The position numbers and the translations under genes are program-made. DNA of 64,000 nucleotides from Psychrobacter sp. Ps6 (GTDB lineage Bacteria > Pseudomonadota > Gammaproteobacteria > Pseudomonadales > Moraxellaceae). Under the pieces are notes generated by a model. The model searched no databases. It was not told the origin of the DNA and saw only the letters and a program-made list of their open reading frames with translations. Shown here piece by piece: positions 51,170-56,718 of this stretch (position 1 is its first letter; each line of letters starts with the position of its first letter). The stretch is taken from contig NZ_JADQAI010000001.1 of assembly GCF_022129235.1 (NCBI RefSeq), positions 186,001-250,000 on the forward strand. Direction: 5' to 3'.

Positions 51170-52042
51170 ATGAAAAAAATCACTCACGCCGTTATTCCTG
51201 TCGCAGGCTTTGGTACACGTATGCTGCCATTGTCTAAGTCTGTACCAAAAGAGTTGTTACCGCTTGGCAATCGTCCTGCCATCCATTACGTGGTCGAAGA
51301 AGCCATTGCTGCGGGTATCAAGCACATCGTCTTGGTCGGTCATGCGCAAAAAAGTGCGATTGAAAACTACTTTGATATCAATGCTGAGCTAGATCATCAA
51401 TTACGTCACAAAGGTAAAGATGAGCTGGCTGATAGCTTAAACTGGCTACCAGAGGATGTAACAGTATCAATGATACGTCAAGGCAAGGCACTAGGTTTAG
51501 GTCACGCGGTATTGGCGGCGCGCCCAATTATCGGTGAACATGACTTTGCCGTATTATTGCCTGATGTCGTGCTTGATCCGTTTACTACTGACATGGCTGT
51601 TGATAATTTGGCCTTTATGCTAGATGCCTTTGCTACAGATGGTCATTCACAGATATTGGTTGATAACGTAGCAGACGAAGACGTGCATAAGTATGGTATC
51701 GCTAAACTCAGTGAGAATAGTGATATGAATGACCAAGCAGATGTGAATGCTAGCTTTAGCGTTGCAGGTTTTGTAGAAAAACCCAGTCTAGTAGAAGCAC
51801 CTTCAAACCTAGCTGTCGTAGGGCGTTATGTATTTAGCAATCAAATTTTTGATTACTTAGCCAATACGCAAGCCTCAGTCGGTGGTGAGATTCAACTGAC
51901 TGATGCTATTGATGCACTTATTAACGAATATGGTGTAAATGTCACAACGATGCGTGGTGCTAGTTATGATGCCGGTGACATGCGTTCGTATATGCAAGCG
52001 TTTATCTATTTTGCCGAGCAGCAATTAGCAGATGATAAATAG
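51170..52042 (+). CDS. galU: UTP-glucose-1-phosphate uridylyltransferase
   Basis: Makes UDP-glucose from UTP and glucose 1-phosphate for surface polysaccharides. ITHAVIPVAGFGTRMLPLSKSVPKELLPL in pieces is the nucleotide-binding signature, then YVVEEAIAAGIKHIVLVG, GLGHAVLAARP, AVLLPDVVLD and VVGRYVF; the late GGEIQLTDAI is typical of GalU. 290 residues is normal. pgi starts two bases after its stop, so galU-pgi are cotranscribed, and two further sugar genes follow. Confidence 0.95.
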   Translation: MKKITHAVIPVAGFGTRMLPLSKSVPKELLPLGNRPAIHYVVEEAIAAGIKHIVLVGHAQKSAIENYFDINAELDHQLRHKGKDELADSLNWLPEDVTVSMIRQGKALGLGHAVLAARPIIGEHDFAVLLPDVVLDPFTTDMAVDNLAFMLDAFATDGHSQILVDNVADEDVHKYGIAKLSENSDMNDQADVNASFSVAGFVEKPSLVEAPSNLAVVGRYVFSNQIFDYLANTQASVGGEIQLTDAIDALINEYGVNVTTMRGASYDAGDMRSYMQAFIYFAEQQLADDK

Positions 52043-52044
52043 CG

Positions 52045-53721
52045 ATGGATAACATAAAGGACGATAAGGCATATAGCAGTGCTCGACATTCTAAATACTG
52101 GCAGCAACTGCAGACGCTTGCAAAGCACCCATGGTCGCTTGCACAGTTATTTGCGCAAGATGACAAGCGCGCTAAACATTTCAGTGTGCAGGCTGGTGCG
52201 CTGTATATGGACTTTAGTAAGCAGCGTATCGATCAGACAGTATTGTCTAACTTACTGAGTTTGGCCGATAGTTGTGAGCTGGATGCTCGTATTGACTCGT
52301 TACTACAAGGCGCGATGGTCAATAACAGTGAAGAACGTGCGGCCTTACATACAGCACTACGTCTGCCTGAGAATGCAGAGCTACAAGTTGGTGAGCAAAA
52401 TGTGGTTGCCGATGTACATCATAGTTTGGCACAGGTAGCGAGATTATCCGAACGTGTCCGTAGTGGCATATGGCGAGGGTTCTCAGGTAAGGCCATTACG
52501 GATGTGGTTAATATTGGCGTTGGCGGCTCTGATCTTGGGCCTCTTATGGCAACTGCTGCGCTTGATGAATGGGCAGACACGGACATCGATGTGCACTTCG
52601 TCTCTAATATGGACGGCACTCAGCTTGATAATCTGTTAAAACACTTAAATCCTGAGACCACTTTATTTATCATCTCTTCTAAGTCTTTTGGTACGGTTGA
52701 TACTTTATCAAATGCTAAAACTGCACTGTCATGGTTGCTTGCGACGGCGACGCTGCGTGCGGGTACTGAAGACAGTGTGTTGCGTCGGCACTTTATTGGA
52801 ATATCAGCCAATAGTGAAAAGATGAGCGTTTGGGGGATACATCCTGAGCATCAATTAGAGCTTTGGGAGTGGGTTGGAGGCCGTTTTTCTTTGTGGTCAG
52901 CGATTGGGCTAGCCATTGCTATTCGTGTTGGTATGAATGGGTTTAGGGAGCTATTAAGTGGTGCTCACAGTATGGATGAGCATTTTGCACAGGCGGATTT
53001 TGCAGATAACTTACCAGTATTGCTAGGGCTGCTAGCTGTATGGAACAGTACGTTTTTAAAAGTGAATGCCCATACCGTATTGCCTTATGATGGACGGCTA
53101 GGCTATCTGCCTAGCTACTTGACCCAGCTTGAAATGGAAAGTAATGGCAAGTCAGTCACTCAGCACGGCGACCATATTGATTATGATACTTGCCCAATTC
53201 TATGGGGCGAGATTGGTTCAAACGCTCAGCATGCCTTTTATCAGTTACTACATCAAGGCACACAGCAAGTCTCCTGTGATTTTATTGCTTGTGTACGCCG
53301 TTATAGTGGCGAGGTACAAAACGCCTCGTTACAACAACAACATGAGTTATCTTTAGCAAACTGCCTAGCGCAAAGTCGAGTCTTGGCATTTGGCAATGGC
53401 GCTGTCACAGATGCCTCGAATAGTGATGAAAAAACGGCATCTAGTGCGGATAAATACAAATATTACCGTGGTAATCAACCATCAACTACCTTGCTTATTG
53501 ATGAGCTAACGCCTCATAGTTTGGGTGCGCTGGTTGCGCTCTATGAGCATAAGGTTTACGTGATGGCCAGTATTTGGGATATCAATCCGTTTGATCAATG
53601 GGGGGTTGAGATGGGCAAGCAAATGGCAGAGTCTGTGCATGACGCTATGCAGCAAGAGACTCACAACCAATTTGACACATCTACCGACCAATTATTACAG
53701 CATATTAAAAAACTGTCTTAG
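52045..53721 (+). CDS. pgi: Glucose-6-phosphate isomerase
   Basis: Interconverts glucose 6-phosphate and fructose 6-phosphate. VVNIGVGGSDLGPLMA and SSKSFGTVDTLSNA bind substrate phosphate; VGGRFSLWSAIGL and the late NPFDQWGVEMGKQMA are PROSITE-like signature regions. 558 residues is normal. It lies between galU and the UDP-glucose-dehydrogenase-like gene, supplying hexose phosphate for nucleotide sugars and gluconeogenesis. Confidence 0.96.
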   Translation: MDNIKDDKAYSSARHSKYWQQLQTLAKHPWSLAQLFAQDDKRAKHFSVQAGALYMDFSKQRIDQTVLSNLLSLADSCELDARIDSLLQGAMVNNSEERAALHTALRLPENAELQVGEQNVVADVHHSLAQVARLSERVRSGIWRGFSGKAITDVVNIGVGGSDLGPLMATAALDEWADTDIDVHFVSNMDGTQLDNLLKHLNPETTLFIISSKSFGTVDTLSNAKTALSWLLATATLRAGTEDSVLRRHFIGISANSEKMSVWGIHPEHQLELWEWVGGRFSLWSAIGLAIAIRVGMNGFRELLSGAHSMDEHFAQADFADNLPVLLGLLAVWNSTFLKVNAHTVLPYDGRLGYLPSYLTQLEMESNGKSVTQHGDHIDYDTCPILWGEIGSNAQHAFYQLLHQGTQQVSCDFIACVRRYSGEVQNASLQQQHELSLANCLAQSRVLAFGNGAVTDASNSDEKTASSADKYKYYRGNQPSTTLLIDELTPHSLGALVALYEHKVYVMASIWDINPFDQWGVEMGKQMAESVHDAMQQETHNQFDTSTDQLLQHIKKLS

Positions 53722-53758: not shown

Positions 53759-55165
53759 ATGGGGACTGCTACAAACGATCAACGTATGCCTTATAGTGAA
53801 TTTGCATCAAGCACATTGACCAGTTCCAATGTGTGTGTGCTGGTTGGCCATAGTATCGAAGCGATTACCAGTGCAGTAGTGCTGGCAAGTTTAGGTCAAC
53901 GCGTTCATCTGTATGCAGATATGGATCTATTGGCTCAGCAGATACAGCGATACAGCTTTGAGCATCATCTGCAAGCGCTATGGCAAATGTATGTACAGCA
54001 GCAAGTCATTATGAGCCAAGCATTGCCAGATAGTGCAGAGACGTTAATACAATACTATGAAACGGCAAATCATGGTGATAGCCAAGTTGTCAGTCAGAGC
54101 ATTCATAGTGATGATCAAAATAAAGTGGCGCTTTACTGGTTGTTTTTAGACAGTATTAAGCCAACATGGAACGACGACAGCTGGATTAGGGCATTTAATC
54201 ATAGTCACCAACAGGTATTACCTGTGATTATGAGTGGTATTGAGCAATTAGGGGCTATCTCAGCGCTATCTGAGCGTTTAAAGCGCGCTTGGGTTTATTA
54301 TGTCCCGTTCGTATTTTTACAAGATGGTGATGCTTATAACTCCATGTTGAACCCTGCATTATGGCTGCTGGGTGAAAAAACAGCAGATAGCAACCAACAT
54401 TTAGAGATGTTACAGCCGTTAATGCAGCATGCTCGCGCCGCTCATCATGCCGATATCGCAACGATAGAGTTTGCGCGTAGTAGTATTATGGCGATGCTCG
54501 CGACCCGAGTAAGCTTTATGAATGAAATGTCACGCTTGGCGGATAGCCAGCAGGTGGATATCAGTCAGGTGAGTCGTATTATGGGATTGGATGAGCGCGT
54601 AGGCAGTAGCTATCTACAGGCAGGGTGGGGGTTTGGCGGTAATACACTACCTACCGAGCTGGCTAAGTTACAGCAGTCGAGTAAAATACACAGTTTAGAC
54701 ATGCCTCTTTTACAGTCTATCGTGCATATTAACGAAGACCAAAAAGAGCTGATATTTCGCAAATTTTGGCAGTATTTTGATGGTTTCATTGATAATAAAA
54801 CTGTCATGATTTGGGGCGGCAGCTATAAAGCAGGCTCAGGCCGTACCGCAGGCTCAGCCATCCATCCGTTATTAGCATTGCTCTGGTCTTATAATATCCG
54901 TACACTGGTCTATAGTGATAAGGCACAAGGTGAGCTTGCTGCACTGTACGAACAACAACCTTTACTTGAGTTAACCAGCAGTCCTTATCAAAGAATCAAT
55001 GATGCTCAGGCAGTTTTTTTGATCAGTTGGTCGCCACGAGATCGATTGGATATTGATAAAATCAATCAGCAAGCCATGCCAGTATTTGATGCGCAAAATA
55101 CCTTTACTCGATCGCAAATTGATCGCTTAGTAGGCGACTATGTGGGCATTGGTCGATCTAAATAA
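53759..55165 (+). CDS. UDP-glucose/GDP-mannose dehydrogenase-like protein lacking catalytic Cys
   Basis: The central and C-terminal regions follow the Ugd family pattern: SFMNEMSRLADSQQVDISQVSRIMGLDERVGSSYLQAGWGFGGN in pieces, then VMIWGGSYKAGSGRTAGSAIHPLLALL, and VFLISW near the end. However, the active-site signature GFGGSCFPKD reads GFGGNTLPTE, with Thr296 in place of the nucleophilic Cys and Lys lost. The N-terminal Rossmann motif, usually GxGYVG, reads VGHSIEAITSAVV, without the glycines. The reading frame is otherwise whole (468 residues), with a good ribosome site AAGGG. It is probably not a dehydrogenase; binding or scaffold roles are speculation. It follows pgi by 37 bases. Confidence 0.8.
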   Translation: MGTATNDQRMPYSEFASSTLTSSNVCVLVGHSIEAITSAVVLASLGQRVHLYADMDLLAQQIQRYSFEHHLQALWQMYVQQQVIMSQALPDSAETLIQYYETANHGDSQVVSQSIHSDDQNKVALYWLFLDSIKPTWNDDSWIRAFNHSHQQVLPVIMSGIEQLGAISALSERLKRAWVYYVPFVFLQDGDAYNSMLNPALWLLGEKTADSNQHLEMLQPLMQHARAAHHADIATIEFARSSIMAMLATRVSFMNEMSRLADSQQVDISQVSRIMGLDERVGSSYLQAGWGFGGNTLPTELAKLQQSSKIHSLDMPLLQSIVHINEDQKELIFRKFWQYFDGFIDNKTVMIWGGSYKAGSGRTAGSAIHPLLALLWSYNIRTLVYSDKAQGELAALYEQQPLLELTSSPYQRINDAQAVFLISWSPRDRLDIDKINQQAMPVFDAQNTFTRSQIDRLVGDYVGIGRSK

Positions 55166-55188: not shown

Positions 55189-55224
55189 AAAAAAGCTCGC
55201 TAATCATGATTAGTGAGCTTTTTT
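55189..55224. terminator. Bidirectional terminator after the sugar operon
   Basis: AAAAAAGCTCGCTAATC, AT, GATTAGTGAGCTTTTTT gives a long stem with one C-A or G-T mismatch; it ends the galU-pgi operon and the convergent phosphohexomutase gene. Confidence 0.88.
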
Positions 55225-55230
55225 GTGACT

Positions 55231-56718
55231 TTATGCTAGTACTGCCCCTTTTGCCGCTAACCATTGGTAAATTTCTTGAGTTTTATCAGACAATAGTATC
55301 TGATCGCCGCGACTTTCGATATTCAATCTAATCAGTGGTTCAGTATTCGAAGCACGCAAATTAAAGCGCCATTCGCCAAAATTCAGACTCAAGCCATCAA
55401 GTAGAGATTTAGTTGGATTGTCGATACTAAATTTTTCTTCAATGGCACTGATGATCGTTGGGGCATCATGAGTCGTGAGGCGAAAATTTAACTCGCCTGA
55501 GCTGGGATAAGACTGAATATAACCTGTGACCAATTCTGATAAGGTTTTACCCGTGATAGACAATAGCTCAATGGTTAATAGCCAAGGAATCATGCCGCTA
55601 TCACAATAGAAAAAGTCACGGAAGTAATGATGGGCGGACATCTCGCCACCGTAGACCGCACCTGAATGACGCATGACTTGTTTAATAAATGAGTGCCCAG
55701 ATTTACTAATGACAGCCTTACCATTATGTTCTTCTATCACTGCTTCCGTGTTATATATGACGCGTGGATCATAAACAATGGACTCGTTTGGATACTTATT
55801 CAGAAAAGCTTGAGCGAGCATACCGACGATGTAGCTACCATCAATAAACGATCCATTTTCATCAAACAAAAAGCAGCGATCAAAGTCACCATCAAAGGCA
55901 ATACCAAGATCCGCTTTGTTTTCTAGCACGGCTTGCTGAGTCGCCAGTCTATTGGCTTCAATCATTGGATTGGGGATACCATTGGGGAAGCTACCATCAG
56001 GCGTATGATGCAATTTGATAATTTCAATGGGTGCGTCAGCTTGCGTCAGTCTATTGATTAACAAGTCAACGACTGGACCTGCGCTGCCATTACCAGAGTT
56101 AATAATGAGCTTAAGCGGCTTTAATTTATCAACATTAATAAAAGTCATAACATGATCGATATAAGCACTTTTATCAGTCAATAATTGCAACTGTCCTGAT
56201 TGATTATTAGCGGTAAATTGTCCTGATTCTGCCAATGCCTGAATCTCCGCCAAACCATCATCCGCACTGATTGGTTTTGAATGCTCTTTGACCAGTTTTA
56301 AACCATTGTAGTTGATAGGGTTGTGGCTTGCCGTGACTTCTATACCGCCCAGTGCCTGATAATAACTGGTAGCAAAGTAAACCTCTTCCGTACCACTCAT
56401 GCCCAAATCTATGACGTCGACGCCTGCATCAACGATGCCTTTGATAGCGGCTTGTTTTAATTGCTCACTAGAGTGGCGAATATCACTACCAATGACGATA
56501 GCTGGTTTTAGGTCTGCCATATCATTGTTTTGGATCTGATCAGATACCTGATAGCGCTGATATAAAATCTGAGCAAAAGCCCGACCAATACGGTAGGCGA
56601 TGTCTTCATCGAGATTGACGCCAAGCTCACCGCGTATATCATAAGCTTTAAACGAGTTGATGGTGATAGCATTGAATTCCGTGGCGGGCTGATAACTGGT
56701 GGTCGCAGAAGTCGACAT
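55231..56718 (-). CDS. algC: Phosphomannomutase/phosphoglucomutase
   Basis: Interconverts hexose 1- and 6-phosphates through a phosphoserine. AYDIRG opens the fold, VTASHNPINYNGLKLV carries the phosphoserine, AFDGDFDRCFLFDE the metal site, GGEMSAHHYFRDFFYCDSG the sugar-binding loop, and RASNTEPLIRLNIE the phosphate-binding loop. About 496 residues from the ATG at 56718 (AAGGAA upstream). It resembles Pseudomonas AlgC, which makes both mannose 1-phosphate and glucose 1-phosphate; the galU partner lies in the convergent operon. Symbol algC by analogy; pgm or manB are equally used. Confidence 0.93.
   Translation of the reverse strand: MSTSATTSYQPATEFNAITINSFKAYDIRGELGVNLDEDIAYRIGRAFAQILYQRYQVSDQIQNNDMADLKPAIVIGSDIRHSSEQLKQAAIKGIVDAGVDVIDLGMSGTEEVYFATSYYQALGGIEVTASHNPINYNGLKLVKEHSKPISADDGLAEIQALAESGQFTANNQSGQLQLLTDKSAYIDHVMTFINVDKLKPLKLIINSGNGSAGPVVDLLINRLTQADAPIEIIKLHHTPDGSFPNGIPNPMIEANRLATQQAVLENKADLGIAFDGDFDRCFLFDENGSFIDGSYIVGMLAQAFLNKYPNESIVYDPRVIYNTEAVIEEHNGKAVISKSGHSFIKQVMRHSGAVYGGEMSAHHYFRDFFYCDSGMIPWLLTIELLSITGKTLSELVTGYIQSYPSSGELNFRLTTHDAPTIISAIEEKFSIDNPTKSLLDGLSLNFGEWRFNLRASNTEPLIRLNIESRGDQILLSDKTQEIYQWLAAKGAVLA

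Follow-up and report, generated by a model that had tools for sequence, protein, structure and literature searches.

The gene described here closes a run of three consecutive genes on the + strand of the window, the 64,000-nucleotide stretch of the Psychrobacter sp. Ps6 genome that was analysed. It is preceded by galU (51170..52042), encoding a UTP-glucose-1-phosphate uridylyltransferase of 290 aa and named from its sequence and because its surroundings match the galU-ugd-gpi order published for K loci, and, after a gap of 2 bp, by pgi (gpi; 52045..53721), encoding a glucose-6-phosphate isomerase of 558 aa. A further 37 bases downstream follows a gene for a protein of 468 aa (53759..55165), a Cys-less paralogue of UDP-glucose dehydrogenase (Ugd) that was recognized from the open reading frame list, Pfam, a phylogenetic tree and a reading of its motifs, and that we term PUG, for pseudo-Ugd. 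An earlier note on this DNA had placed the gene in a galU-pgi operon and had described an intact frame with a good ribosome site. The open reading frame listing of the window confirms the frame, with an ATG start and no internal stop, and AAAGGG lies 7 nt ahead of the ATG. On the opposite strand, pgm (phosphoglucomutase, 55231..56718, start set at an internal ATG of a 521-aa open reading frame) converges with PUG, and the sequence between the two contains a near-perfect palindrome flanked by runs of A and T (55189..55224) that looks like a two-way terminator common to both genes; this element was absent from the output of the terminator scan.

Catalytic roles of a cysteine, a lysine, an asparagine and an aspartate are established for Ugds, and all four columns are invariant in the Cys-type Ugds used for comparison (39/39). 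In the window protein the motif around the nucleophile, GYGGSC or GFGGSC in Ugds, reads GFGGNTLPTE and, as the earlier note had it, Thr296 (54644..54646) sits in the Cys column. Alignment with the 39 Ugds and with the structures 3gg2 and 2y0c indicates that the catalytic loss is wider than was stated there, with the Lys and Asn positions (R240..M244, 54476..54490) occupied by Arg240 and Met244, respectively, and the Asp position by Glu300. The glycines of the Rossmann motif GxGxxG had also been described as lost in VGHSIEA (residues 29-35, 53843..53863); this is correct for the second and third, replaced by Ser32 and Ala35, but not for the first, which is kept as G30. A relocated catalytic Cys can be ruled out, as the columns from -4 to +8 around the catalytic column contain no Cys in any of 133 family members; the window protein has a single Cys, which lies in strand 1 (residue 26).

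Pfam matched the central domain (PF00984, 2e-21) and, weakly, the C-terminal domain, while the NAD-binding domain PF03721 was not listed at E values up to 1. With NCBIfam TIGR03026 the protein scored 118.9 bits, below the cut-off of 189.8 that an Acinetobacter relative passes with 199. Its nearest solved relatives by sequence are the Ugds 3gg2 and 2y0c, with alignments that begin only at residue 186. Note that in the N-terminal domain of the Psychrobacter copies residues 95-122 (about 54041-54124) form an insert that varies, is modelled with low confidence and is missing from many other members.

An AlphaFold model (26 sequences) had a mean pLDDT of 74.8, with values below 50 at residues 1-22, 106-119 and 285-296, the last of these being the active-site segment. 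Foldseek placed Ugd structures on top (3gg2_D, E 3.2e-25), and VIA-align superposed the model on 3gg2 with a Z score of 34.0 over 396 residues in the range 24-465, and on 2y0c and 2y0e with Z about 33. The three-domain Ugd fold, with two Rossmann-like domains and a central helix, is thus predicted to persist. Because the N-terminal domain superposes as well, the absent Pfam match reflects a loss of sequence features rather than of the domain. The model also matched N-PAC/GLYR1 (2uyy) at Z 14.8. In N-PAC/GLYR1, too, a dehydrogenase fold has been put to non-catalytic use; unlike PUG, it belongs to the beta-hydroxyacid dehydrogenase family, and it is eukaryotic and nuclear.

An initial search that took the window protein as query found matches in 330 of 348 Moraxellaceae genomes, true Ugds possibly included. 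For counting we relied on profile A1, built from 29 relatives and applied at E 1e-108, a threshold near 360 bits that exceeds every Cys-type sequence read (best score among the loci read, 341.9 bits), because profile A3 could not separate PUG from Cys-type Ugds, one of which (L195) scored 456.7 bits. With A1, PUG was found in 318 of the 348 genomes and in 9 of 16 genera, among them all 105 Psychrobacter genomes and 169 of 175 genomes of a genus (g2) that is taken to be Acinetobacter from its gene order and from the protein of genome G016, which is 92-93% identical to those of three A. baumannii records. The closest relatives, from P. piscatorii and P. pacificensis, share 94-95% identity with the window protein. 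Wider searches, which sampled 293 genomes of the order, 229 of the class and 299 of the phylum, placed PUG in further families of the order (f26, f36, f37, f43) and in two more of the class (f99, f148); of 28 loci read in the phylum-wide search, 24 were of Cys type and 4 were PUG, namely three from f36 and the window's own.

Altogether 163 distinct superfamily sequences were compared, comprising 133 PUG, 15 TuaD-like Ugds and 15 E. coli-type Ugds, drawn from overlapping genome and locus collections (4 duplicates dropped) that cover genomes unevenly and include many near relatives. The Cys column holds T in 89 PUG sequences, S in 24, N in 8, G in 8, A in 2 and H in 2, and Cys in none of the 133, as against all 30 comparison Ugds. 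Since PUG and Ugd were assigned by the Cys motif itself, it is the tree that tests for common origin: a single branch, with support 100/100, separates 49 of the 133 PUG rows from the 15 TuaD-like and 6 of the 15 E. coli-type sequences. By this analysis PUG is a single old clade that spans several gammaproteobacterial families and is not peculiar to Psychrobacter. The earlier note had asked whether the Thr is conserved in other Moraxellaceae, or whether relatives carry the standard motif. None of the 133 members has the Cys, so that its absence is conserved and relatives are without the standard motif; the Thr, however, is found in most Psychrobacter and gives way to Ser, Asn, Gly, His or Ala in other lineages. 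With this variation, the idea of Thr as a conserved replacement nucleophile is unsupported.

Residue retention differs along the chain. Over the columns that 14 or more of the 15 TuaD-like Ugds have in common, the retention in PUG is 0.30 for the N-terminal domain (969 of 3234 cells), against 0.56 for both the central domain (1552 of 2793) and the C-terminal domain (1044 of 1862). Of the NAD-side residues, neither the strand-2 Asp nor any of the reference positions T97, P98, D102 and G103 is kept in a single one of the 49 PUG sequences. All 49 keep D278, R280, G291, G293, G294, N325, G353, D444, Y461 and G465, and 42 keep K357; R280 and the DGRN arginine are residues that we take to contact the UDP-sugar in other Ugds. 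In the alignment the NAD-side loss is therefore clade-wide, and many UDP-sugar-side residues remain. The branch formed by Psychrobacter and Moraxella has gone further: none of its 21 sequences has the catalytic Lys and only 1 has the DGRN arginine, each of which all 28 outer members keep, and its C-terminal-domain retention is 0.34. As the sugar side is eroded here too, UDP-sugar binding by the window protein is less sure than by its counterparts in the Acinetobacter branch.

The clade has also gained constraint. At seven columns, 45 or more of the 49 PUG sequences share a residue that no more than 7 of the 15 TuaD-like Ugds have, and three of these, E330, R334 and W337, lie on one face of helix 316-339 (E330-x3-R334-x2-W337, 54746..54769), a face constrained in the PUG clade only. 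W337 is present in 49/49 PUG and 0/39 Cys-type Ugds, R334 in 46/49 and 2/39, E330 in 45/49 and 7/39, and the three occur jointly in 44/49 and 0/39. A gain of constraint is not what decay would be expected to produce, and the pattern suggests that this face is a new contact surface.

The genomic setting is conserved as well. At 114 distinct PUG loci, pgi lies on the same strand within 3 kb in 110, galU in 105, both in 103 and at least one in 112; the two loci with neither lie on contigs that stop 141 and 195 bases before the gene on its upstream side. Among 15 TuaD-like loci pgi is in reach at 2 and galU at 4, and at least one of these (L163) adjoins a PUG locus. In Psychrobacter and Moraxella PUG comes last of the three (galU-pgi-PUG), and in Acinetobacter and several other lineages it stands in the middle (galU-PUG-pgi). 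This adjacency may reflect common expression only. Purifying selection, for which the earlier note had proposed dN/dS as a check, is evident in Nei-Gojobori comparisons with Psychrobacter relatives, which gave a median omega of 0.077 for PUG (54 unsaturated of 74), alongside 0.052 for galU (64/72), 0.042 for pgi (49/74) and 0.045 for pgm (53/73). Against the three closest relatives, the omega of PUG was 0.10-0.13.

A second, intact ugd, another check proposed at the outset, does exist in the Psychrobacter sp. Ps6 genome. It encodes an E. coli-type Ugd (L001) that shares the superfamily with PUG but, unlike PUG, has the active-site motif GYGGYCLPKD and a complete NAD domain; the genome also contains a WbpO/VipA-like dehydrogenase (L002). 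The exact E. coli-type active-site pattern was found in 147 of 348 Moraxellaceae genomes, including the window's own, a count that misses Cys-type TuaD-like proteins, of which one was read in Moraxellaceae (G205, L177). From these counts, genuine Ugd is accessory in the family. On contig C42 (2088-3098 and 838-2004) the intact gene adjoins an open reading frame that, by its sequence, resembles a Stealth-type capsule phosphotransferase, which suggests a separate capsule or glycan locus with a genuine supply of UDP-glucuronate. Compared with Ugds of the TuaD/BceC/3gg2 type (EC 1.1.1.22), PUG shares the full-length fold, PF00984 and many UDP-sugar-side residues, and in a quick tree its clade nests among Cys-type Ugd members, but it is devoid of the catalytic Cys, Lys, Asn and Asp, of the NAD glycine motif and of the strand-2 Asp, and the ExxxRKxW helix face and the tie to galU and pgi are specific to it.

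The clade extends to A. baumannii. Three A. baumannii chromosomes have PUG between galU and pgi, with 92-93% identity to the G016 protein, and all three read GVGFGGENFSHD, with Asn for Cys and without the glycine motif. Their only other PF00984 protein is WbpO/Gna-like and lies about 14 kb off, so that the PF00984 search found no genuine Ugd in any of the three. Note that these records (NZ_CP077849.1, NZ_CP104448.1 and NZ_CP064203.1, 3.7-4.1 Mb) are listed as plasmids in PLSDB, yet the loci are chromosomal. The K-locus 'ugd' of A. baumannii is assigned to the PUG clade on the basis of gene order, of the three genomes and of the Acinetobacter-like loci L124 and L143. It agrees with the window PUG in clade, neighbours, replacement of the Cys and loss of the glycine motif, and differs in that it keeps the Lys and the DGRN motif and appears in print as a producer of UDP-D-GlcpA.

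In published passages, galU, ugd, gpi and pgm are described as present in every K locus, with differences that leave the capsule type unaffected (PMC9676051), and the K-locus ugd is on record as the maker of UDP-D-GlcpA (PMC9676051, PMC3628348). Published passages also attribute D-GlcA to ugd2-ugd5, with the number 24 given (PMC9676051), and the GlcA of KL71 likewise to ugd4 (PMC11619341); by their published names, Ugd2-Ugd5 share the superfamily with PUG. The identity of the K-locus 'ugd' as PUG fits this assignment of D-GlcA to the extra genes, and if the K-locus gene is indeed dead as an enzyme, this would account for the restriction of assigned D-GlcA to loci with ugd2-ugd5. One study describes an A. 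baumannii mutant, resistant to phage, in which ugd was hit by an insertion sequence at position 1,137, among others in gpi and pgm (PMC10904470); the ugd insertion is consistent with a capsule-related role, and it could also act by polarity on gpi, which lies downstream of ugd in Acinetobacter. We found no printed statement in the open-access literature searched of a K-locus Ugd without the Cys. Should the gene be dead, it would be an error to list it among the enzymes in capsule predictions, metabolic models and drug-target lists.

With the missing nucleophile and cofactor motif, we are confident that PUG is not a UDP-glucose dehydrogenase. The earlier note had proposed that it is kept for a task other than oxidation of UDP-glucose, and the Cys-less clade, the low dN/dS and the intact ugd elsewhere in the genome bear this out, so that PUG probably does another job. 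That it is merely a recent pseudogene of an active ugd, as the missing catalytic residues and a few broken frames in relatives might suggest, is extremely improbable and is contradicted by the age of a clade common to several families, by its conservation in 105/105 Psychrobacter genomes and by purifying selection. The broken frames in question are split genes in Psychrobacter sp. JCM 18903 and WY6 (L093, L109) and in one Moraxella metagenome-assembled genome that occurs twice (L107/L118), and they may be assembly errors or true losses. Only slightly more credit can be given to the view that the operon retains PUG solely for its structure or expression, with galU, PUG and pgi linked by translational coupling and the protein itself of little function; short gaps or overlaps with the neighbours at many loci are in its favour, but neither the low dN/dS nor the new constraint at E330, R334 and W337 is what it predicts, and the full three-domain fold has been kept across deep divergence.

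Two further explanations grant the protein a function of its own, and we regard each as unlikely. PUG might still be a nucleotide-sugar enzyme with altered chemistry, such as a partial oxidation, an epimerisation or a hydrolysis that takes place in the UDP-sugar pocket still present and employs the Thr or Ser or, in the outer branch, the Lys. Persistence of the fold and of the sugar-side residues would be in line with this, as would the Lys and the arginine of the DGR motif in 28/28 outer members each; the NAD determinants, however, are gone clade-wide, the position once held by the nucleophile can be T, S, N, G, H or A, and the window's branch has lost the Lys, Asn and Asp too. Alternatively, PUG might form mixed dimers or hexamers with a genuine Ugd or with Gna/WbpO and act in them as regulatory subunit or dominant partner, a doubtful reading for which one can cite the well-kept central-domain stretch ATRVSFMNE, presumably the equivalent of the dimer-forming part in Ugds, the intact Ugd near PUG at several loci and the Gna-like protein that is the only other family member in the three A. 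baumannii chromosomes. An E. coli-type Ugd is nevertheless found, by exact motif, in 147 Moraxellaceae genomes as opposed to 318 for PUG, and the three A. baumannii chromosomes are without a genuine Ugd altogether. Ugd therefore cannot be the general partner of PUG, and the role of a subunit of genuine Ugd is ruled out in general; Gna is a possible partner.

On balance we find it reasonably likely that PUG is a pseudoenzyme, a Ugd paralogue that has been retained because it serves the GalU/Pgi node in some other way. The mechanism that we favour, still tentatively, has PUG bind UDP-sugars and respond to this ligand as a regulator of GalU and Pgi or as a scaffold for them. The retained UDP-sugar half would still bind a nucleotide sugar, most likely UDP-glucose as the product of GalU, and the newly gained helix face with E330, R334 and W337 would touch a partner, GalU or Pgi. 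GalU would then supply the ligand and Pgi govern the precursor, and PUG would tune the flow of glucose phosphate into UDP-sugars for surface polysaccharide. Extended to the whole clade, and here we speculate, PUG may represent a widespread class of UDP-glucose-sensing pseudoenzymes with a single origin from Ugd, which in Moraxellaceae and related families would regulate GalU and Pgi or serve them as a scaffold; with the universal K-locus 'ugd' included, such a protein would set the entry of glucose phosphate into capsule without making UDP-glucuronate. PUG would be a clean case in which cofactor binding and chemistry were lost once and a new conserved surface was then gained, and as it adjoins the two genes that it most plausibly serves, the new function is directly testable.

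Two observations concern the descent of the family. Four Psychrobacter genomes (G241, G269, G297, G298; loci L113-L116) carry far-diverged PUG proteins with 36-37% identity to that of the window and with GYGGST motifs, and Psychrobacter thus seems to hold two old PUG lineages. At L163, L168 and L171, a Cys-type TuaD-like ugd is located within a few kb of PUG, the layout that would be expected if PUG arose via tandem duplication of ugd.
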